Below, piece after piece: positions 3,153 to 23,345 of a DNA stretch of 32,093 nucleotides. The number at the start of each line of letters is the position of its first letter. Position 1 is the stretch's first letter. The position numbers and the translations under genes are program-made. The notes under the pieces were generated by a model. It had not been told where the DNA came from. It saw nothing but the letters and a program-made list of their open reading frames with translations, and ran no database searches. The DNA comes from a virus, in IMG/VR virus record IMGVR_UViG_3300011445_000056, positions 1 through 32,093 of that record; one strand, 5' to 3'.

Positions 3153-4622
3153 TCACCTCGACTTCGGCAGCGAGTTGAAGTCCACCACGGCGCCAGCAGG
3201 CGCCGGGGCGGGGGCGGGGGCCGCGCCTGGGGCTGCGGGTGCTGCGGGTGGCTGGAGCCCGGTGCGCTCGGCCACGGCCCGGTTGGCGGCTTGACCCCAG
3301 CGCGAGCGGGCGTCGTCGGCGTAGGCCCTGGCGCCCTGCAACTTCTGCATGACCAGTTCGATGTCGTCCTTGTCGGGGTTGATCAAGAAGCCCTGGGCGC
3401 GGTGCGCTTCGCCCTGCGACTGCGCCGCGCCGTACAGACGCGACATCTCCATCGCCGCGTCACGCACGAAGTTGACCCGCAGCGCCTTGGCATCCGGGGT
3501 CATGCCCACCGCCGTCTGCACGGCTGACTTGCCCATGATGCCGGGCACCCAGTCGGCGGCTGTCGCGCCGAAGCCGAAGGCCGTCGGGTTGGCCTTCACC
3601 TTGTCGAGCATGGTCGAGGCGCTGGCAGCGGCCTGGGCCAGTTCCGTCGTCGCCGTGACGTTCTTCTCGTGCTGAACCTTCGGGATCACAGAGCCCTGGT
3701 GCGGTGCGTACTGGGGCTGGCCGTTGGCGTCGAAGCCCGTGCGGACCCAGGCAGCACCCCGCTTGTCGCGGACAACCTCATTGCCCGTCTTGGAGTCCAC
3801 ACCCTCAAAGTCGGCCTTGCCGGGGCCGCTCGCACCGGCAGCGCCCGCCACGATGCCAGCGGTCATCATCGCCGTGCCGCGCTGGTACTCCCAGCCTTCC
3901 TTCTTCAGCCGCTCGATTTCCTTGGCAGCGGCGAGCTTGGCAGCGCGGGTGGCCGCGCTGTCGATCACGCGCTGGTGGGCCGTGATCTGCGCGTTGATCT
4001 GCTTGAGCTTCAGTTCCTGCGCGTAGCCCGGGTCTTCGATGAAGCCCGTCTCGGTCATCTGCCCGCCGTGAACCTTCATAGGCTCCTTGGCCGCTGCCGC
4101 CTGCTTGAGGAAGTGCCCCTGGACCGGGGCGAAGTCCTGCCCCGCCCGCTGCGCCGCCAGGGCCAGCATCAGTTGGGTGGTCCCGCCCTGGGCCCGCTTG
4201 TCGTACGCCGCCTGGGCGCCCGTCATGTCGGGCGGCTTCATGGCCTCCTGCAACTGGCCGTACAGGGCCTGCTGCCGGGCCTCCAGGGGGTCGAGCGCTT
4301 CAGAGGCTCCAGGAGGCGCCGCAGGAGGCGCTTGGCTACCAGGGGTGCTTGGCGGTCCCGATTGCGCCGCCACGGCCCTGGGAAGGGCCTGCGCGGGGGC
4401 CTGCGGCGGCTGGGGAGGCTGCACGGGCGGCTGGACCGGGGGTTGCGGCTGGACAGGCGGCTGGGGCGGCGCCTGGGGCGGCATCGCCGTCGGCATCGGT
4501 GGCCGGTCAGCCTGCTCACCCCGCAGCGCAGCGGCCTGCATCGTCATGCGCTCGCGCCGGGCTGCTTCGGCTGGCGTGACGTTGGGATCGCCGAACAGGT
4601 AGGAGAACAGGTCTTGGGCCAT
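3153..4622 (-). CDS. Putative internal virion protein with proline-rich N-terminal region
   Basis: A 489-aa protein. Residues 1-40 include FGDPNVTPAEAARRERMTMQ. Residues of about 40-100 are an extreme Pro/Gln/Ala tract with PP-QPP repeats. The remainder is Ala/Lys/Gln-rich, mostly helical, with a Lys/Glu coiled-coil-like patch near 215-245 (KLAAAKEIERLKKEG). The C-terminus returns to Pro/Ala (APAPAPAPAG). An SD-like AAGGA lies 8 bases before the ATG. It is followed after 3 bases by the gene at 1623-3149. Low complexity, helix content and position suggest an internal virion or ejection protein. The family is not recognised with confidence. Confidence 0.5.
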   Translation of the reverse strand: MAQDLFSYLFGDPNVTPAEAARRERMTMQAAALRGEQADRPPMPTAMPPQAPPQPPVQPQPPVQPPVQPPQPPQAPAQALPRAVAAQSGPPSTPGSQAPPAAPPGASEALDPLEARQQALYGQLQEAMKPPDMTGAQAAYDKRAQGGTTQLMLALAAQRAGQDFAPVQGHFLKQAAAAKEPMKVHGGQMTETGFIEDPGYAQELKLKQINAQITAHQRVIDSAATRAAKLAAAKEIERLKKEGWEYQRGTAMMTAGIVAGAAGASGPGKADFEGVDSKTGNEVVRDKRGAAWVRTGFDANGQPQYAPHQGSVIPKVQHEKNVTATTELAQAAASASTMLDKVKANPTAFGFGATAADWVPGIMGKSAVQTAVGMTPDAKALRVNFVRDAAMEMSRLYGAAQSQGEAHRAQGFLINPDKDDIELVMQKLQGARAYADDARSRWGQAANRAVAERTGLQPPAAPAAPGAAPAPAPAPAGAVVDFNSLPKSR

Positions 4623-4632
4623 GACAGTGTCC

Positions 4633-5190
4633 TTACTTGCCGACTCCAGAGCGCTCGCGCAGATCGGCGAAGGCCTGATCGCTCTTGCGGGTCAGCGCGG
4701 CCTGATCCTCGTCGGCCTGCTGGGCCTTGTAGGCGCCGACGCCCGTGTTGGCGAGCGCGCCCAGCATCTCCAGCGGGTGCTGGGCGACCTGCATGCGCCC
4801 GGCGTTACGCATCTGGCCCATCTGCCCGCCCTTGCGAAGCTGCTCGACCAGCGCCCGCTTGCGGGCAATCTCGGCGTGCTGGGGCTGGAGCCCGCCCATC
4901 GTCGTCAGGTAGTCGAGCATCAGTTGATCCTGATTCGGCTGTCCGGGCGGCGGCGGCGCGGTGCCGGGCACCTGACCCTGGCCCGCGATGTCGGGGTTGC
5001 CGCCCTGCGGCGGCATCGCCCCAGGGCCCATGCCGGGGTTCATCTGCGGGCCCATCGGCTGGCCCATGCCGGGCGGCATCGGGGGCATGCCGCCGCCACC
5101 GGCCACGGGGCCAGCCATGCCGGGGATGCCGGGACCGGCCTGCTGCTGGAGCATCTGTTGCAGGTCGAAGGGGAGGGGTTGACCGTTCAT
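4633..5190 (-). CDS. Gly/Pro/Met-rich virion-region protein, unknown
   Basis: A 185-aa protein. The N-terminal half is almost entirely Gly, Pro, Met and Gln (GPM, PGMG and PPMPPG repeats, about residues 15-85). The C-terminal half is a charged helical region (KRALVEQLRKGGQMGQMRNAG, then a segment with ANTGVGAYKAQQADED). The start ATG overlaps the TGA of the PAPS-reductase-family gene (ATGA), so the two are probably translationally coupled. It is 11 bases upstream of the proline-rich virion gene at 3153-4622, with which it shares composition. No known domain was recognised. It may be a small structural or linker protein. Confidence 0.6.
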   Translation of the reverse strand: MNGQPLPFDLQQMLQQQAGPGIPGMAGPVAGGGGMPPMPPGMGQPMGPQMNPGMGPGAMPPQGGNPDIAGQGQVPGTAPPPPGQPNQDQLMLDYLTTMGGLQPQHAEIARKRALVEQLRKGGQMGQMRNAGRMQVAQHPLEMLGALANTGVGAYKAQQADEDQAALTRKSDQAFADLRERSGVGK

Positions 5191-5870
5191 GGCAGGACTC
5201 CAATTTCTGTGAGGACATCATCGCGCCAGCGGGTGACCAGCGCGTTTACACGGTGCCGCTGCGCGGCGGGGAGGTTCTCGATGCGGCGATGGTTGTCGTC
5301 CAGGTAGGCGGTGCAGTCCCAGCAGTCGCGGCTGGTCTTCTCGCCATCCTCGTAGCCTGGAGGCACCAGATCGGGCCGGTGCTCGGCCACGTAGCGCCAG
5401 ACCATCTCGCGGGTCCAGTCATGAATCGGGAAGCGGTACATCACGCCGTCAACCACGATGCCGTCGTTGGCCGGGTCGCGCAGCTTGTCGTCGTCGCGCT
5501 GGCCCCGGTAGATCACCGTCGCGCCCATGCCCCGGCTGGTCTGCTCCAGCGGTTGCCAGATCGCCCGGTTGCAGCACGAGAAGGAGTCCTGGTAGCGAAT
5601 GTCCTTCGCGCCCCGGATCATCTGCCCCATGAACGTCCAGCGCAGCGGCACGACATCGACGGGGTGGCCGTACTGCTCGATGTCGCGCTCGGTACGCACG
5701 CTGACGAAGACGATGGCCGGGAAGGCCTCGCGCACCTTGTTGAGGTAATCGACGGTGCTGCCGTAGGCGCCGTCGGTCAGCACCGAGACGACATGCAGCC
5801 CCGGTTCGTCCTGCAACAGCAGCAGGCACGCCAGAGAGTCGAGGCCACCGGAGAACTGGAGGATTTTCAT
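5187..5870 (-). CDS. PAPS reductase / adenine nucleotide alpha-hydrolase family enzyme
   Basis: A 227-aa protein. The N-terminal strand-loop FSGGLDS (residues 6-12) is the PP-loop that binds the pyrophosphate of ATP or PAPS. Further family marks are TDGAYGS near 32-38, RGQRDDDKLR near 122-131, and PIHDWTREMVWRYV near 148-161, which matches the PI-WT-DVW-Y segment of PAPS-reductase-like proteins. Cysteines C99/C100 and C183-x2-C186 could bind metal or an Fe-S cluster. Known members reduce PAPS or APS or activate substrates by adenylation; the substrate here is unknown. The gene sits inside the virion operon. It starts 2 bases after the gene at 5873-6958 and overlaps the next gene by ATGA, so it is expressed late with structural proteins. 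This is odd for a metabolic enzyme but has been seen in other phages. Confidence 0.85.
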   Translation of the reverse strand: MKILQFSGGLDSLACLLLLQDEPGLHVVSVLTDGAYGSTVDYLNKVREAFPAIVFVSVRTERDIEQYGHPVDVVPLRWTFMGQMIRGAKDIRYQDSFSCCNRAIWQPLEQTSRGMGATVIYRGQRDDDKLRDPANDGIVVDGVMYRFPIHDWTREMVWRYVAEHRPDLVPPGYEDGEKTSRDCWDCTAYLDDNHRRIENLPAAQRHRVNALVTRWRDDVLTEIGVLP

Positions 5871-13807: not shown

Positions 13808-14779
13808 TCAGGCTCCGACCAACCGGCCCTGGAACTGACGTCCAGAGCAGGTCAGATTCCCCGCCCAGGCCAGGATGCTCACCTCGGCGTCCTGGTTCAC
13901 GGCGTAGCGCTTGTTGGGCGACAACGGCACCATGTCCCGTGCGCTATGGGGGCGCAGGAAGATGTACTTCGTGTTCAGGAAGAAGGTCGTGTTCGCCGGG
14001 CAGAAGCCACCGATGCCGCCGTCGAGCACGACGTCGGCGTCCATGTACTTCACGCTCGGGAAGCCCAGGTTGCCCACCTCGGGCGAGGTGAAGCGCTGCT
14101 GCGCTTGCAGTGACGCAAGGTACACGCCCCAGGCTACGTTGTCCTGCACGATCAGGTCGGGCCTGTCGGTGCCACGGATCAGCGAGGCCCACATCGTGTT
14201 CATGAAGCCCTGGATGTTCGCCGCCGTCTGCGCTGCCGTCAGCGTGTACTTCGACGTCCAGAACAGCCATGTCGAGCCCACGATGCCGCCGTAGGCGGTG
14301 ACCTGCGAGGCTGGCGCCAGCGCGGGCATCGCAGCGCCCAGGCCCGTCAGGGACTTGCCTGCGTAGGTCGTGCCGTCGGCGTAGATGCCCTCGGCCATCA
14401 GGTTCGCCATCGTCGCCTCGGAGACGTTGATGCGGCCTTCCAGCAGGTCGATCATCTGCTCCTTGCCCGCGTTCTGGATTTGCTCCAGACCGGACATGGT
14501 CACCGGGCAGGCGAGTTGCTTGATGTTGAACTCAGCCGCCGAGATGACGTCGCTCGCGGCCACCGGCAGCAGGTCGTACCCGCTGTACCAGCCACCGTTC
14601 GCGTTCTGCGCGAAGGACAGTTCCTGGTAGATCACGTTGCCGCCCGAGAAGGGCTTGCGGTTGCCGCGCTGGTCGAGACGCATGTACAGCGCGTTGTTCT
14701 TGGTCACGTTGTCCGCGATCTTGCGGGTGCGCGACTGGATCGTCGTGGCGACGATGTCGGATACGTTGGGGAATGCCAT
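13808..14779 (-). CDS. Major capsid protein
   Basis: A 323-aa protein. The N-terminus carries the well-conserved arm of a large phage capsid family: TTIQSRTRKIADNVTKNNAL (residues 12-31), then RGNRKPFSGGNVIYQELSFA, WYSGYDLLPV and MSGLEQIQNAGKEQMIDLLE (about 95-114). The C-terminal half contains TWLFWTSKYTLTAA and the strand FLNTKYIFLRPHSARDMVPL. These are HK97-fold capsid features. The length is within the family range, and GGAGG precedes the ATG. It follows the scaffold gene in transcription order, as in most short-tailed phages. It should be the most abundant virion protein. Confidence 0.92.
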   Translation of the reverse strand: MAFPNVSDIVATTIQSRTRKIADNVTKNNALYMRLDQRGNRKPFSGGNVIYQELSFAQNANGGWYSGYDLLPVAASDVISAAEFNIKQLACPVTMSGLEQIQNAGKEQMIDLLEGRINVSEATMANLMAEGIYADGTTYAGKSLTGLGAAMPALAPASQVTAYGGIVGSTWLFWTSKYTLTAAQTAANIQGFMNTMWASLIRGTDRPDLIVQDNVAWGVYLASLQAQQRFTSPEVGNLGFPSVKYMDADVVLDGGIGGFCPANTTFFLNTKYIFLRPHSARDMVPLSPNKRYAVNQDAEVSILAWAGNLTCSGRQFQGRLVGA

Positions 14780-14918: not shown

Positions 14919-16049
14919 TCAGTACCGCGAATGCGCCTCGATGGCCGCTTCGATGCTCTCGCGGATCGAAGTCGGTTCAGCCACATTCGGGTTGCCGATG
15001 GGGGCCGACCCGGTCACGCTGACTGCGGCTGCGCGTGCGCGCTGGGCCGCTGCCGTCAGTTGGTGAGCGCTCGCCCCCTGTCGCTGGGCGATCATAACCT
15101 TGGAGATTTCGGGGTGCAAGAATGCCGCCCGCTCGTAGGCGTCGGCCAGACTCATGTCGAAGCCCTGGCGCTGGGCCACCTCGATCATGTCGGCCATCGC
15201 CACCCGCAGGTCGGGGAAATACTTATTCTTCGGGTCTGCGGCGAACTGCTCAAGCTCGCTGCGCGTGGCCGTCTCGGCCTGCTGCTGCACCTGCTGGTGG
15301 CGCTGCTGCGCGGCTTGGTACAGCGGCGCCAGGGCCTGCTGCACGGCCTGCTGCACGTACTGGGGATCGGTGCCCTGCTGCTGCTGCGGCAGCGGCTGGC
15401 CCACCAGGGCGTTGTCGAGGGACTGGATGTCCACGCCGTAGGTCTTGATGATCGTCGCCAGGGTCTGCGCCTTCTCGTTGGGCGTGCCCATCCTCATGCG
15501 GGTGGCGAACTGCATCAGGTTGGTGACCGCCGTCAACGGGTCAACCCCCTCGGCCTGGATCGCGGGCATGAAGGGCTGCACGGCCTGATGGAAGCGCTCG
15601 CCAAGCTGGCGCGCCGGGGCCGTGTCCTGGGCCCACTGCTGCATCTGCGTCTCGCGCCGGGCAATCTCCTGCTGCGCTGCAACAGGAACCTGGGCCCAGG
15701 CCTCCTTGGCGCCGAAGCTCCAGCCATAGGGCGGCTGGATGGCCTGGGAAGGGGCCTGCGGGGCCGCTGGCGCCCCGATCACGGGCGCGGTGGCACCTGG
15801 GGTGCCTGGAGCCGCTGCGGCGCCTCCTGGGGCCTTTTCGGCCTTCGGCAGGAAGCGGCCCATCGAGTCGCGCACCGGGGCGCTGCCCTCGGGCTTGGGA
15901 TCGGCAGGCGGCGTGCCCTCGGGCGGCGTCTCGGGCGCTGGCGTGCCGCCGTCGCCGCTGTCGGGGGTGCCGACGCTGTCGCCGGGACTATCTTCAGCGG
16001 TACTCAGCGCCGACTCGATGTCGCCGCGCAGGTCGTCTTCGGGGCCCAT
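14919..16049 (-). CDS. Capsid scaffolding protein
   Basis: A 376-aa protein. It has an acidic, Pro/Gly-rich N-terminus (residues 1-60 with many D/E and PP), then the motif RDSMGRFLPK, a Pro/Ala spacer (about 70-100), and a long helical, Gln-rich central region (WAQVPVAAQQEIARRETQMQ; VQQAVQQALAPLYQAAQQRH). A predicted helical C-terminus ends with SIRESIEAAIEAHSRY. Helical content, Gln/Ala bias and position immediately upstream of the capsid gene are those of scaffolding proteins that guide procapsid assembly and leave or are lost on maturation. AAGGAG lies 7 bases before the ATG. No protease domain is visible. Confidence 0.85.
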   Translation of the reverse strand: MGPEDDLRGDIESALSTAEDSPGDSVGTPDSGDGGTPAPETPPEGTPPADPKPEGSAPVRDSMGRFLPKAEKAPGGAAAAPGTPGATAPVIGAPAAPQAPSQAIQPPYGWSFGAKEAWAQVPVAAQQEIARRETQMQQWAQDTAPARQLGERFHQAVQPFMPAIQAEGVDPLTAVTNLMQFATRMRMGTPNEKAQTLATIIKTYGVDIQSLDNALVGQPLPQQQQGTDPQYVQQAVQQALAPLYQAAQQRHQQVQQQAETATRSELEQFAADPKNKYFPDLRVAMADMIEVAQRQGFDMSLADAYERAAFLHPEISKVMIAQRQGASAHQLTAAAQRARAAAVSVTGSAPIGNPNVAEPTSIRESIEAAIEAHSRY

Positions 16050-18592: not shown

Positions 18593-20644
18593 TCATTGCA
18601 TCGGTGGTCCCGATGCGGGTTGCAATGGTGCTACGTTGGGGCCGGGCTGCATCGGCATGCCGCCGGGGCCCATGCCGCCTTCGACGGCCAGCATGGCCTC
18701 GGCGCCCTTGACACGGGCCTCGGCGAGGTTCTTGACAGCCTGGGTCTTGTTCTTGTCCACGTTGCTGTCCTTCTCGCGCACCGTGGCCTCCTCGACGGGG
18801 TCGGGCTCGGGCGGCTTGTCGGGCTGCTGCGCGGCGGCGATGGCCTGATCGAGCACCGTCTCGATTTCCTTGGAGATGCGGAAGCCGCCCAGGCCCCACT
18901 TCATCATCTGGAGCACGACGGGGCCAGCCTCGGGCTTGCTCTCGATCAGCGGCGTGACCGCCGTGATGAAGGTGCCGACGGCGGTCATGAACTGCGAGCG
19001 GCTGTCGCGCTCCTGGGCCCAGTCCACCATCGCCATCGACTCTGCCTCGATGGTGATGCGGTAGAACTTGCTGTTGCCCGGCTCCTTCAGGAAGGCGATG
19101 GCCTGCTGCGCCAGCGGCGCGTCGGGCGAATGCTCGATGTTGCTGCGCTCCACGATGGTCTGCGGCTGGAACTTGTCGCAGATGATCTGCGACCTGATGC
19201 GCTGGCCCTGCGCGATCCAGGTGCCGATAGCCTGCTGTTTAAACTGGAGCCTGTTGCCGCCGAACTGGGCCTTCAGTTGCTGCGCGCCCAGCGTCTCGTC
19301 CGGGTCGGTCATGCCGCGCATGATGTCGCCGATGCCCAGCACCTCGTAGAGGTTGGCCTTGATGGCCTCGCGCTGCTGCGTCAACTGCCCGATCACCGAC
19401 GCGATCACCTCGATGGGCACGAAGTCCATCTGGCCCTTCAGCCCGCCCTTCTCGGCGAACGCGGCCCAGTTGTCCACCGGGATCATCTGGTTCTCCATGC
19501 CCTCAATGAACACGCGCCCGACGGGCGTCGAATTCTTGTCGTAGACGCCGATCACCTTGCAGGCCTTGATCAGGTACTTCAGGCGCGTCGTGATTTCATC
19601 GATCTGCTGGTACTGATCCTGCGCGAGCAGGTAGTCGGCCCGGGGCATGAAGCGCGACGTCGCCGTGTTCGCCATCAGCGGCGCCGGGCACGGGAAGAAG
19701 CCCCGGAGCCCAAGCGGGTCGGGCTTGTAGTCGCAGATGACGTCGTAGCCCAGGACATGCCAGTACGCGCATTGCGTGGTCTTGTCCCAAATCTCGAAAA
19801 CCGCCGCCTTCTCCCACGGGTCGTTCTGCGGGCCCACGCCGTCGTTCTTGGTCTTGCTCTTGCTCACCGGGATCAGCTTGCCGATCTTCTTGCCGAAGCG
19901 GGCGACCAGTTCCTCGCGGTTCATGAAGACCCGGCGCGCAACCCAGCGGACGTCCTGCCAGACCCGCGCAGGCGACCACCAGAAGTCCTCCCAGTAGACG
20001 TAGTCGGCGGGGGCATCCTCGCCCGTGATGGCCTCGTACTTGATGGGCTCGGCCAGTACAGCCCCGGTCTGCTGGTCGGTGACCGCCTCCGTCTCGGCTT
20101 CCTTCGTCTCCACCTCGTAGCGGTACCAGACCTGCCCCAGGCCCACCACCAGGAAGTCGCCGACGGCCTGCTTGGTCACCTCGGGGTATGTCGATTCGTC
20201 GCCGTCTTCGACGTCGTGATTGAGCATGCGCTGGAGGATGTTGCAGCCCACGCGGCTGACGTCGTCTTCGCTGTCCTTGTAGCTGTTGCTGACGTCCACG
20301 TTGGGCGGCTTGGCGTACAGGCTGGCCTTGAGCACCTCGATGTTCGACCAGAACAGGTTGAACTTGCTGTCGGCGCCGCCGTCCATCGCGCTCGCGTCGC
20401 GCTCATCGAGGTACTTCTGCACCAGCCTGCGCCCCAGCGAATGGAACTTGGTCAACTCCTTCTTCGCCGCTTGCAGTTCAGTCTCCCAGCGCTTCGCCAT
20501 CTCGGCAGGCGACTTGCCCTTGGCCTCCTTGGGCACCTTGGACTGATCCCCGGGCTTCACAGGCTCGTTGATGTCCTTGGCGTTGCTGGGGTCGGGGTCG
20601 GTCCCGTAGCCCTTTTCGTCACTGGTAGTTGTCTTGCGGGGCAT
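18593..20644 (-). CDS. Portal protein
   Basis: A 683-aa protein. The ATG at 20644 overlaps the terminase stop (TGATG); the longer frame upstream lies inside terminase. The N-terminal part has a helical RWETELQAAKKELTKFHSLG segment (about residues 52-71) and the KFNLFWSNIEVLKASLYAKP block (about 92-111). Later come PDYLLAQDQYQQIDEITTRL-like wing/stem helices and GTDPD/LGAQQLKAQFGGN. These match P22-type portals, as does the length (P22 gp1 is about 725 aa). The C-terminus is Gln/Ala/Pro/Met-rich. The portal forms the dodecameric DNA channel and anchors the terminase. Its position directly after terL is the canonical order. Confidence 0.88.
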   Translation of the reverse strand: MPRKTTTSDEKGYGTDPDPSNAKDINEPVKPGDQSKVPKEAKGKSPAEMAKRWETELQAAKKELTKFHSLGRRLVQKYLDERDASAMDGGADSKFNLFWSNIEVLKASLYAKPPNVDVSNSYKDSEDDVSRVGCNILQRMLNHDVEDGDESTYPEVTKQAVGDFLVVGLGQVWYRYEVETKEAETEAVTDQQTGAVLAEPIKYEAITGEDAPADYVYWEDFWWSPARVWQDVRWVARRVFMNREELVARFGKKIGKLIPVSKSKTKNDGVGPQNDPWEKAAVFEIWDKTTQCAYWHVLGYDVICDYKPDPLGLRGFFPCPAPLMANTATSRFMPRADYLLAQDQYQQIDEITTRLKYLIKACKVIGVYDKNSTPVGRVFIEGMENQMIPVDNWAAFAEKGGLKGQMDFVPIEVIASVIGQLTQQREAIKANLYEVLGIGDIMRGMTDPDETLGAQQLKAQFGGNRLQFKQQAIGTWIAQGQRIRSQIICDKFQPQTIVERSNIEHSPDAPLAQQAIAFLKEPGNSKFYRITIEAESMAMVDWAQERDSRSQFMTAVGTFITAVTPLIESKPEAGPVVLQMMKWGLGGFRISKEIETVLDQAIAAAQQPDKPPEPDPVEEATVREKDSNVDKNKTQAVKNLAEARVKGAEAMLAVEGGMGPGGMPMQPGPNVAPLQPASGPPMQ

Positions 20645-22005
20645 CAGAGTCTCCCTTCGTTGGGCCGGGGCCCGACAGTCGCCCACAACTGGTCGAGGGT
20701 GAAGCTGCGGTCAATGGGCGGCACGATTATGGTCTTCGGCTCGGGCGGCGGGTCGAGCACCATCAGGCGGGCGGCGCCTTCCATGTAGGCGTCGGCGCCG
20801 TGGCTCGACCAGTCGTGCTCGGGCTCGCTGCTGAAGGTCTTCGTCTCGTCGTCGTACTTGTAGGCGTAGGCCCGCATCGCCATCAGGAAGGGCTCGCAGA
20901 CCGGGGCGTCACTGATGCGGGCGCGGCGCAGCATGACGCGCCCGGCGTTGATGCTGTCGGCCTTCTTGCGCTGCTCGTTTACACGCACCTCGCAGCCCTT
21001 CCACGGCGGGTTGGCGAGGAACGTCTCGACGGCGGTGCGCTTGCTGGCGAACGTCCTGGCGCGGGCGTCGTGCGGCAGCACCAGGACGTTGGCGGGCGGC
21101 TGCTTGGACAGGCGCTCGATCCATTCCTCGGCGTCCATGCCGCTGCCGTCGTCGTAGTGGAAGACTTCAAACCCGCCGCGCATGCGCTTCCACCAAACCC
21201 ACGCGGCCTTGTCGCGGTAGCCGATGTCCGACGTCACCCACACCTCGTCGTTGGGCCCTGGTGGGTCGATGTGGCAGATGCGGCCCTGCTTCTCGGCCTG
21301 CTCGATGTAGCGCCCGAAGATCGCGCCGACGTTGGCCGCGCTGAAGTCGCAGTCGTACTCCTGCCGGTACAACTCATCGGGCATCTCGGCGCGCTCGTCA
21401 TCCAGGACGCTCTGCGCGATGTGCTTCGTGTCCTTGACGCCCAGGTGCGAATGGAACCACGCAGGGTTGGCCTTCGCCAGCTTGATCAGGTCGTAGAAGT
21501 GGTTGTAGCCCCGGGGTGTGCTGATGAATGCCGCCCAGCCGCCGTTGCCTGCCAGGATCGGACGGAATATCTGCCACGCACGTGGGTCACTGAGCGCTGC
21601 CTCGCTCATCGTCAGGCCGAAGGGGTTCGCGCCGACGATGCTGTCGTAGTAGTCGCTGCCCACCAACTGCCAGATCGCGCCGTTGCGTAGCGTGATCTTC
21701 ATCTCGGTCTTGTTCGTGTCCTGCCGGATCGCGGAGGGCATCGCAGTGTCGAGAATCTTGTGGCCGGTGTTGTCGAAGCCGTCCCATATCACCTTCCTGG
21801 CCTGCTTGTGATTCGGGAGCATGTGGAAGTACATGCCTGGACGTTCAAACATCATCTTGACCGTCTGATGCACCATCGTCAGGTCTTTGCCGTAGCGGCG
21901 CGGCCAGCACGCGGCGGCACGCAGGCCACCGTGATCGAAGTAGCGCATCAGGCTGCGCTGCGGTGGCCTGGGCGTGAACCCGTTGGGCAGGATCAGTTCG
22001 CTCAT
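20644..22005 (-). CDS. terL: Terminase large subunit
   Basis: A 453-aa protein with both terminase domains. The ATPase domain has the Walker A-like WPRRYGKD (residues 34-41), a Walker B region MSEAALSD (near 130-140) and the coupling motif ISTPRGYNHFYDL. The RNase-H-like nuclease domain has acidic residues in TSDIGYRDKAAW, in DARART (near 315) and at the late D of SSHGADAYMEG (near 420). The length is normal for the family. The ATG directly follows the dispersed motif GTGTAAAC with no clear SD, which is odd for an essential gene. It is followed by the portal with a TGATG overlap. Confidence 0.92.
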   Translation of the reverse strand: MSELILPNGFTPRPPQRSLMRYFDHGGLRAAACWPRRYGKDLTMVHQTVKMMFERPGMYFHMLPNHKQARKVIWDGFDNTGHKILDTAMPSAIRQDTNKTEMKITLRNGAIWQLVGSDYYDSIVGANPFGLTMSEAALSDPRAWQIFRPILAGNGGWAAFISTPRGYNHFYDLIKLAKANPAWFHSHLGVKDTKHIAQSVLDDERAEMPDELYRQEYDCDFSAANVGAIFGRYIEQAEKQGRICHIDPPGPNDEVWVTSDIGYRDKAAWVWWKRMRGGFEVFHYDDGSGMDAEEWIERLSKQPPANVLVLPHDARARTFASKRTAVETFLANPPWKGCEVRVNEQRKKADSINAGRVMLRRARISDAPVCEPFLMAMRAYAYKYDDETKTFSSEPEHDWSSHGADAYMEGAARLMVLDPPPEPKTIIVPPIDRSFTLDQLWATVGPRPNEGRL

Positions 22006-22016: not shown

Positions 22017-22139
22017 TCAGTCGCCCCAATACTCGTGCCACGACAGCCAGCGCTCCTCGACCCTGCACGCCAGCAGGTAGCTCGCCACGGCCACGGTGGC
22101 CGTGATGACGACGATGCCGATGGCGACGATGCAGATCAC
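22017..22139 (-). CDS. 40-aa single-pass membrane micro-protein
   Basis: GTG start overlapping the upstream TGA (GTGA). The first 25 residues are a membrane segment (MICIVAIGIVVITATVAVAS) followed by a Cys and a charged, Trp-rich tail (EERWLSWHEYWGD). No family is recognised. It is the last of four tiny overlapping ORFs between the small terminase candidate and terL. A lysis-helper role is only one possibility. Its reality is supported by the overlaps and by an uninterrupted frame of normal composition. Confidence 0.55.
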   Translation of the reverse strand: MICIVAIGIVVITATVAVASYLLACRVEERWLSWHEYWGD

Positions 22140-22294
22140 GCCAGCCGCCCCATCAACCTCGACAGCAGCGCATTGTCCCGCGTGACGTTGGCCGCGATGC
22201 GCGGCGCGTGCTTACGGAGCACCTCGCTGATGGTGCGAGAGATGTTGAACACGCGGCGGCGCGTGCTGTTGCGACGGCGGCGCAGACTTGTCAT
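22136..22294 (-). CDS. 52-aa Arg-rich protein resembling the capsid N-terminal arm
   Basis: The ATG overlaps the upstream TGA (ATGA) and its own TGA overlaps the next GTG. Residues 1-14 are strongly basic (RRRRNSTRRR). Residues 33-47, IAANVTRDNALLSRL, match residues 21-35 of the major capsid protein, IADNVTKNNALYMRL, at 10 of 15 positions. The similarity extends upstream without gaps, giving 12 identities over 33 positions. This looks like a duplicated or captured capsid-arm segment fused to a basic head. It is not a fragment of capsid in place: the capsid gene is about 8 kb away. Function unknown; binding to capsid or scaffold is plausible. Confidence 0.6.
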   Translation of the reverse strand: MTSLRRRRNSTRRRVFNISRTISEVLRKHAPRIAANVTRDNALLSRLMGRLA

Positions 22295-22389
22295 GGCCCG
22301 TACCACATGCGGTACTCGATGACGCGCTCGATCACGTAGGCCGCGAGCGCGCCCACTGCGATGCCGCCGATGAAGGCCAGCCAGATCAC
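22291..22389 (-). CDS. 32-aa membrane micro-protein
   Basis: GTG start overlapping the upstream stop (GTGA), stop overlapping the next ATG (ATGA). It has one hydrophobic segment (IWLAFIGGIAVGALAAYVI) and a short charged end (ERVIEYRMWYGP). No known family. Too short for domain assignment; reality rests on the overlap pattern. Confidence 0.5.
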   Translation of the reverse strand: MIWLAFIGGIAVGALAAYVIERVIEYRMWYGP

Positions 22390-22796: not shown

Positions 22797-23177
22797 TCAG
22801 GCCTCCTTGCGGATCACCACGGTCAATGGCCCGCCACCCTCGCCGACCTGCTCCTGGCGGGACAGCTTGGGCGCTGCGAAGTCAGCGAGGTGCCCCAGGC
22901 GCGTGAGCGCACCAGCGGGGTCAGCGGGCCTGCCCGCCATGATCACTTGGCCCTTGGCGTTGAGCTTGTCGGGCGTGCCCTCTGCGACCTGCCGCAGCCA
23001 CAGGGCGACGTTCTCGCGGTTGTCATCGAGCAGGCGCTGCACCGTGACGCGGAACTCCTGCGTGACCTTGTTGGGCACGCCCTTGACCCGCCCCTTGCCC
23101 GCGTTGGGAGGCTTGCGCCTGGGCGTTTCAACAGCAGGCACCAGCACTTTGCTGGCCTTGTCAAGGACTTTCGGCAT
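22797..23177 (-). CDS. Terminase small subunit (putative)
   Basis: A 126-aa protein with start at ATG 23177. The N-terminus is basic and Lys/Arg/Pro-rich, with GKGRVKGVPNKVTQEFRVTV (residues of about 27-46), a pattern common to small-terminase-like phage proteins that begin G-R-x-K-G-x-x-N-K. A helical VQRLLDDNRENVALWLRQVA segment and LTRLGHLADFAAPKLSRQEQ follow. The end is GGGPLTVVIRKEA. It would recognise phage DNA and stimulate TerL. It is the first gene of the virion operon. The start is unusual: a TACACT box lies only 5 bases upstream and no SD is evident, so the transcript may be leaderless. Confidence 0.65.
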   Translation of the reverse strand: MPKVLDKASKVLVPAVETPRRKPPNAGKGRVKGVPNKVTQEFRVTVQRLLDDNRENVALWLRQVAEGTPDKLNAKGQVIMAGRPADPAGALTRLGHLADFAAPKLSRQEQVGEGGGPLTVVIRKEA

Positions 23178-23345
23178 GCCGCAGTGTAGCCCTCTGCGGG
23201 CCACGCCGTCGAGCGCTGGACGACGACGGGCTCGCGTGCGCGGGCGCTCGCGCACATGCGATCTATATATATTTAATGTCCTTATGTCCCTATAGAGGGC
23301 CCTACGAACAAGACAAGAGGACCGCAGACCTACATAGACCCCCTC
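23178..23345. promoter_or_regulatory. Intergenic control region upstream of the virion operon
   Basis: There is no gene in these 168 bases. It is split between a G+C-rich part next to the small terminase and an AT-rich stretch (CTATATATATTTAATG, 23263-23278) that is unique in the window. Adjacent direct repeats ATGTCCTT and ATGTCCCT lie at about 23276-23291, then the palindrome AGGGCCCT. The layout looks like an operator or entry site for RNA polymerase serving the minus strand, but no textbook promoter is clear in the AT-rich part. Confidence 0.5.
23183..23212 (-). promoter_or_regulatory. Candidate minus-strand promoter for the virion operon
   Basis: Read on the minus strand: TCGACG, 18 bases, then GGGC-TACACT as last spacer bases and -10. 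This matches the spacing and GGGCTAYAYT core of the four plus-strand promoters. Only 5 bases separate the box from the ATG at 23177. Confidence 0.4.

Follow-up and report, generated by a model that had tools for sequence, protein, structure and literature searches.

A free-standing small protein resembling the N-terminal arm of the major capsid protein, encoded in a variable terS–terL gap of a phage

The window analysed here, i.e. the whole stretch of 32,093 nucleotides of the IMG/VR record IMGVR_UViG_3300011445_000056, contains in the gap between the ORF in terminase-small-subunit position and terL the gene of a small arginine-rich peptide, whose tail resembles the N-terminal arm of the major capsid protein; the resemblance is confirmed as genuine. 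The description of this product as a capsid-arm-like peptide carrying a basic head, put forward in a first-pass annotation of the same DNA, is strongly supported, since purifying selection acts on the head as well as on the tail, and two more free-standing relatives have been found. As to its function, the reading that we tentatively prefer, with somewhat less than even confidence, is that of an accessory micro-protein derived from a capsid arm, which would modulate, cap or block the assembly of the shell in trans.

To our knowledge, the modulators of capsid assembly known so far are either mimics of the scaffold or whole homologues of the capsid protein, and are mostly derived from satellites. 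A capsid arm that stands free and is under selection, in the packaging operon of the phage itself, would represent, if true, a different way to act on the shell, and would make the contacts of the N-terminal arm during assembly directly testable with a reagent of roughly 50 residues. Variable terS–terL gaps harbour small proteins that ordinary annotation overlooks; the rare relatives detected elsewhere show that the peptide represents a real family of small proteins, whose members may dock on the shell during its assembly.

The peptide gene and the terS–terL gap

The features considered are collected in Table 1. The peptide ORF looks coding, its GC content by codon position (0.58/0.56/0.88) being like that of the capsid and terL genes. 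It sits in a series of tiny overlapping ORFs that runs from the terS-position ORF to terL: its ATG shares bases with the stop of the upstream one-TM ORF (ATGA), as does its TGA with the GTG start of the 40-aa one-TM ORF, which intervenes between the peptide and terL, so that the direct adjacency to terL initially claimed for the peptide does not hold. The product contains 13 Arg residues, with a pI of about 12 and a net charge of +12; its amphipathicity is strong (moment 0.48 over 37 residues), and a single-sequence model predicts a single helix from residue 3 to residue 51 (pLDDT 87.6).

Table 1. Position of the peptide gene, of its segments and of the other genes discussed in the text (window coordinates).
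Feature	Position	Strand	Remarks
Free capsid-arm mini-protein MTSLRRRRNSTRRRVFNISRTISEVLRKHAPRIAANVTRDNALLSRLMGRLA	22136..22294	minus	52 aa, ATG to TGA
Arginine-rich head, residues 4-15 (LRRRRNSTRRRV)	22250..22285	minus	identical in window, L228 and L205 lineages
Capsid-arm-like helix, residues 17-50	22145..22246	minus	gap-free to capsid residues 5-38; phrog_9953 in register; profile-profile comparison; capN HMM
Tail core, most conserved, residues 33-47 (IAANVTRDNALLSRL)	22154..22198	minus	identity to L228 12/15
One-TM ORF, ends ERWLSWHEYWGD	22017..22139	minus	40 aa; between peptide and terL
One-TM ORF (VIWLAFIGGIAVGALAAYVIERVIEYRMWYGP)	22291..22389	minus	GC3 0.94; stop overlaps peptide start
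Terminase large subunit (terL)	20644..22005	minus	phrog_2, E 4.5e-34; matches to Mx9 and BUCT555 terL
Conserved ORF in terminase-small-subunit position	22797..23255	minus	65-79% DNA identity in relatives
Major capsid protein	13808..14779	minus	NF033394 (NCBIfam) E 7.5e-84; phrog_9953 E 1.7e-102

The terS–terL gap is a variable accessory site: the segment 22005–22796 is replaced in 39 distinct relatives, the genes on both sides being kept, and its contents differ from one relative to another, comprising methyltransferase-like ORFs, lipoproteins, and holin-like and other tiny TM proteins. ORFs related to the 40-aa one-TM ORF are found in the same gap of relatives; none of the relatives examined first carries the peptide ORF in this gap, and most relatives are without the gene. 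The gap yielded neither an Rfam family nor a promoter-like site. A C-terminal motif, (R/K)WL(S/T)(W/L)xE, noted at 22017–22139 (minus strand) and at L197:3933–4076, occurs among 32,830 ORFs only in small one-TM ORFs of the gap and in the tail of the L205-type peptide described below; a swapping of tails among the neighbouring small genes at the gap is possible.

Some further genes deserve mention. In L196 (IMGVR_UViG_3300011440_000018), a record of the same phage as the window, a holin-like membrane protein of 64 aa (phrog_23151) is encoded outside the gap, at L196:1629-1823, and a look-alike of this protein is present in the terS–terL gap, upstream of terL, in L014 and L089. The same record encodes, at L196:1907-2833 (minus strand), a secreted-type protein of 308 aa with a C-terminal PEP-CTERM sorting motif (Pfam PF07589, E 2.7e-8), a surface signal usually found on bacterial proteins; a phosphoadenosine-phosphosulfate-reductase-like protein (phrog_424) is encoded at 5187–5870 (minus strand), among the structural genes. 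The ORF at 14919–16049 occupies the place of a putative scaffold gene and matches no family.

Resemblance to the capsid arm

A recount confirmed both the 10 identities out of 15 between IAANVTRDNALLSRL (peptide residues 33-47) and IADNVTKNNALYMRL (capsid residues 21-35) and the 12 identities of the longer gap-free block (peptide 17-50, capsid 5-38). What did not stand is the idea that the peptide copies the arm of the phage's own capsid protein: the arms of relatives are closer to it (14–16 identities over 34 residues) than the own arm (12/34), and a recent duplication of the own capsid gene is ruled out, the in-register DNA identity being 54/102 and other capsids being closer.

Taken alone, the similarity to the own capsid appears of modest strength. 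In a look-elsewhere test, which covered all pairings of a small ORF and a large protein of the window with 300 shuffled data sets, the single-sequence score against the own capsid was reached, window-wide, in 11 of the 300 sets, and the family-profile score in one. Moreover, the window copy keeps 3 of the 10 invariant and 3 of the 6 near-invariant residues of the arm, so that chance needed to be weighed seriously.

Comparisons of greater specificity are more telling. A search of the peptide against PHROGs gave a sole match out of 38,880 families, the major head protein, in register (E 0.2), the match to phrog_9953 covering only positions 9-41 of the 329 of the profile; in 2.3 Gb of phage DNA, all five tblastn matches (E 1-4) fall in the same arm of major capsid proteins. 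The capsid-arm profile detects the peptide with E 0.0046, the next non-capsid ORF of the 33,702 compared having E 11, and none of 20,000 shuffles attained the score of the peptide; when the profile of the two tail-bearing peptides was set against that of 28 capsids, the probability came to 96% over 34 gap-free columns. In a scan for arm-like stretches, the matches listed were capsids only, this phage excepted. A match in L006 was rejected as a chance match within a 623-aa ORF.

The peptide is not a full-length HK97-fold capsid protein (about 320 aa), and no NCBIfam model matches it. The PDB holds only weak relatives of the capsid (E about 0.03), and the AlphaFold model of this capsid has a pLDDT of 41.5.

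Homologues in other phages

The family is based on three tail-bearing lineages, i.e. the window, L228 (IMGVR_UViG_3300017605_000432) and G086 (IMGVR_UViG_3300043473_000010), and on one head-only lineage, L205. Scans with peptide patterns followed by tblastn confirmation overlooked true homologues, probably because arginine-rich stretches fail this confirmation; the homologues were recovered instead by full-record searches and by a DNA pattern of the head.

A whole-record search identified the homologue of the L205 lineage, MKLRRRRNSTRRRVMTVTRCIFEAMRRHSDPIDANRWLSLRERWDTSP, directly upstream of terL in IMGVR_UViG_3300047092_000006 (E 1.5e-8); head and middle are kept in this homologue, the capsid-like tail is not. 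The head-only DNA pattern (RRRNSTRRR), run over IMG/VR with the tail left out of the query, returned L228, as well as two more contigs of the L205 lineage. The L228 ORF, which encodes MGSSLRRRRNSTRRRVLTLTRILAETFRKRSAAIAANVTANNALLMRLTRG and overlaps the stop of a methyltransferase-like ORF and the start of terL, has a tail, IAANVTANNALLMRL, scoring 32 bits against the capsid-arm profile; because this homologue was found by its head alone, its tail represents an independent confirmation, and it overturned the reading, suggested by the L205 lineage, that the tail is unconserved. A homologous ORF next to terL in relatives, looked for as the first-pass annotation had proposed, is therefore present in the L228 and L205 lineages; the opposite outcome, that relatives have no homologue next to terL, nearly applied and fails because of these two lineages.

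The third tail-bearing copy, the G086 ORF MKKAKRLYWVRIAHLTLSELIARTIRRHAPKIAANIEQNNALLKYLRDSS..., was found by whole-record searches with the L228 peptide. Against the capsid-arm profile its arm reaches 27.6 bits, the best shuffle having 10.8, and with the window peptide it shows 50% identity over 30 residues and a common non-capsid stretch, HAP(R/K)IAAN; indeed, with the G086 peptide as query the window peptide outranks G086's own capsid. This copy lies far from terL and closes an early-type operon. Its basic head is diverged (KKAKRLYWVR), and the evidence of coding is weaker, with a GC3 of 0.68 in the first 50 codons and an uncertain C-terminus. In a close relative of G086 the upstream DNA is kept, similarity ends at the start of the ORF, and a different short ORF comes next. 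All copies occupy variable accessory sites. Searches of PLSDB plasmids and GTDB genomes yielded no homologue, and annotated phages gave capsids or nothing.

As a separate observation, two related phages, L255 (reverse complement, about 4380-4530) and L260, have in common a nearly identical segment of about 150 bp, which contains a hairpin (GCCCTTCCC...GGGGAGGGC) and precedes wholly different short ORFs, i.e. a conserved leader with the gene swapped.

Selection and residue anatomy of the free arms

The different segments of the peptide are under different constraint. Between the window and L228, dN/dS is 0/0.64 for the head (dN 0 and dS 0.6-0.9 over the pairs involving the window), 0.80/1.00 (about 0.8) for the middle and 0.17/0.75 (about 0.2) for the tail core, the latter for one pair and 15 codons; the head and the capsid-like tail are therefore constrained, the linker is not.

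Residues I21, A22, N24, N29, A30, L31, L32 and L35 are common to the three free arms and the capsid consensus, free and capsid arms sharing the core IAxN(V/I)xxxNALLxxL; the hydrophobic residues of this core correspond to capsid I21, V25, L32 and L35. At positions 8, 12, 15, 19 and 23, on the other hand, all three free arms carry residues absent from 77 distinct capsid arms; R15 and A23 are present in 3/3 free arms and 0/77 capsid arms, the invariant arm residues D8, T12 and D23 are lost, and E/Q15 is also gone. According to a post hoc analysis, carried out after seeing the data on three related sequences, these five positions line up as a single stripe along the helix (permutation P about 0.005), on the side roughly opposite to the retained hydrophobic direction. 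Given these shared and distinctive residues, the free arms look like one family, related to the capsid arms and yet distinct from them, one face of the helix apparently being kept and the other remodelled. A stand-alone ORF of less than about 90 aa, with a basic head and an arm-like helix, which we propose as the definition of this family, is found in the window, L228 and G086.

A proposed mode of action and its alternatives

In other phages, separate scaffolds contact the N-arm helix, which lies along the backbone helix of the capsid protein inside the procapsid (PMC12749128). The peptide probably docks at the procapsid site of the arm or of the scaffold, with an altered outer face and head: the arm-like helix would take the site of the arm via the hydrophobic face common to the capsid arm, lying against the spine helix of the capsid, where the separate scaffolds of other phages bind, and the remodelled face, together with the arginine head, would prevent or change the second contact. 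As a consequence of this altered contact, the assembly of the own capsid, or of the related capsid of a rival, would be modulated, capped or blocked; the head probably adds the ability to bind nucleic acid or an acidic scaffold. The L205 lineage, having kept the head and not the arm, indicates that some lineages do without the arm, and its swapped tail suggests that the tails at the gap may be exchangeable address modules.

The patchy accessory distribution and the terL-distant G086 copy argue against an obligatory role in packaging; for these reasons, and because the peptide is more similar to the arms of other phages, we consider its role more likely to be regulatory or competitive than essential for packaging. 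A bolder version, which we regard as rather unlikely, would be that a stripped-down capsid arm has been taken up by phages, or handed from one to another, more than once, and put to use as an accessory weapon or regulator; a face-swapped helix on a nucleic-acid-binding head would enter procapsids in trans and alter or poison assembly, mainly that of competitors with related shells.

Different explanations of the peptide have been considered. It is unlikely, in our opinion, that the working part is the head of a nucleic-acid-binding peptide, the tail being a capsid fragment exapted solely to provide a helix or a means of dimerisation, and making no contact with capsids. The head is indeed the most conserved part, and the tail in L205 has given way to a sequence like that at the end of the adjacent TM ORF (RWLSLRERW versus RWLTLKEWW), so that tails can be swapped; however, the tail of the window and L228 peptides is constrained nearly like the head and keeps the capsid-core residues, and G086 retains the arm despite its diverged head. 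A membrane-active peptide acting in lysis, of the disruptin type, is distinctly unlikely: the high positive charge, the single predicted helix, the strong amphipathicity, the flanking TM ORFs and the presence, in this gap of L014 and L089, of a holin-like relative of L196:1629-1823 would all agree with it, but the conservation of the core with the capsid arm in three lineages is left unexplained, and the G086 copy lies outside any lysis cluster.

Accessory distribution and hypervariable sites, both observed here, are typical of counter-defence genes. The free arm might accordingly be a decoy aimed at systems, of the host or of a rival, for which the major capsid protein is the signal, filling the site of the sensor without triggering it; defences sensing the capsid exist (CapRel, PMC9712102; a TIR system, PMC11312562), but we see no sign here of a sensor reading the arm and identified no defence partner, and this explanation is very doubtful. 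A chance resemblance in an arginine-rich helical ORF, finally, would be in keeping with the marginal window-wide single-sequence score, with the few arm residues retained by the window copy and with the fact that the scan itself favours coincidences; it is nevertheless largely refuted, and highly improbable, in view of the independent L228 homologue with its better-matching tail, of the third free copy in G086 and of the purifying selection acting on the tail.

Comparison with known systems

The assembly modulator postulated here may be compared with CpmB of SaPI1, a protein of 72 residues which competes with the scaffold for the capsid via a short helix (PMC5644958) and which provides a precedent for competition at the scaffold/capsid interface. 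The likeness is one of description, with no sequence relation claimed: both are small, separately encoded and helical, and the short C-terminal helix of CpmB mimics a natural partner in capsid assembly. CpmB, however, mimics the C-terminus of the scaffold and not the capsid arm, is encoded by a satellite and dimerises via its N-terminal domain. Ccm of SaPIbov5, itself homologous to the capsid protein, acts in trans to redirect assembly (PMC8569155); it is a full-length HK97-fold protein of 355 aa located in pentamers, in contrast to a 34-residue arm on a basic head. The peptide is not satellite-encoded as CpmB and Ccm are: its gene lies within the structural region of a phage that possesses terL, portal and capsid genes of its own.

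Disruptins are small, cationic and predicted to be helical. These cationic phage lysis peptides, mentioned in PMC9239132, are likened to the peptide as a cationic amphipathic helix and by these properties alone; a role in lysis does not explain the residue-specific conservation of the arm. With respect to the capsid family NF033394/phrog_9953, whose residues 5-38 align gap-free with the tail of the peptide, the free arms differ in being without the whole HK97 fold and in having an added basic head.

A minor observation concerns G091, the 71,149-base record of L182, in which capsid-arm matches occur at 638-730 and at 37123-37215, about 36 kb apart, perhaps reflecting two capsid genes or a concatenated assembly.
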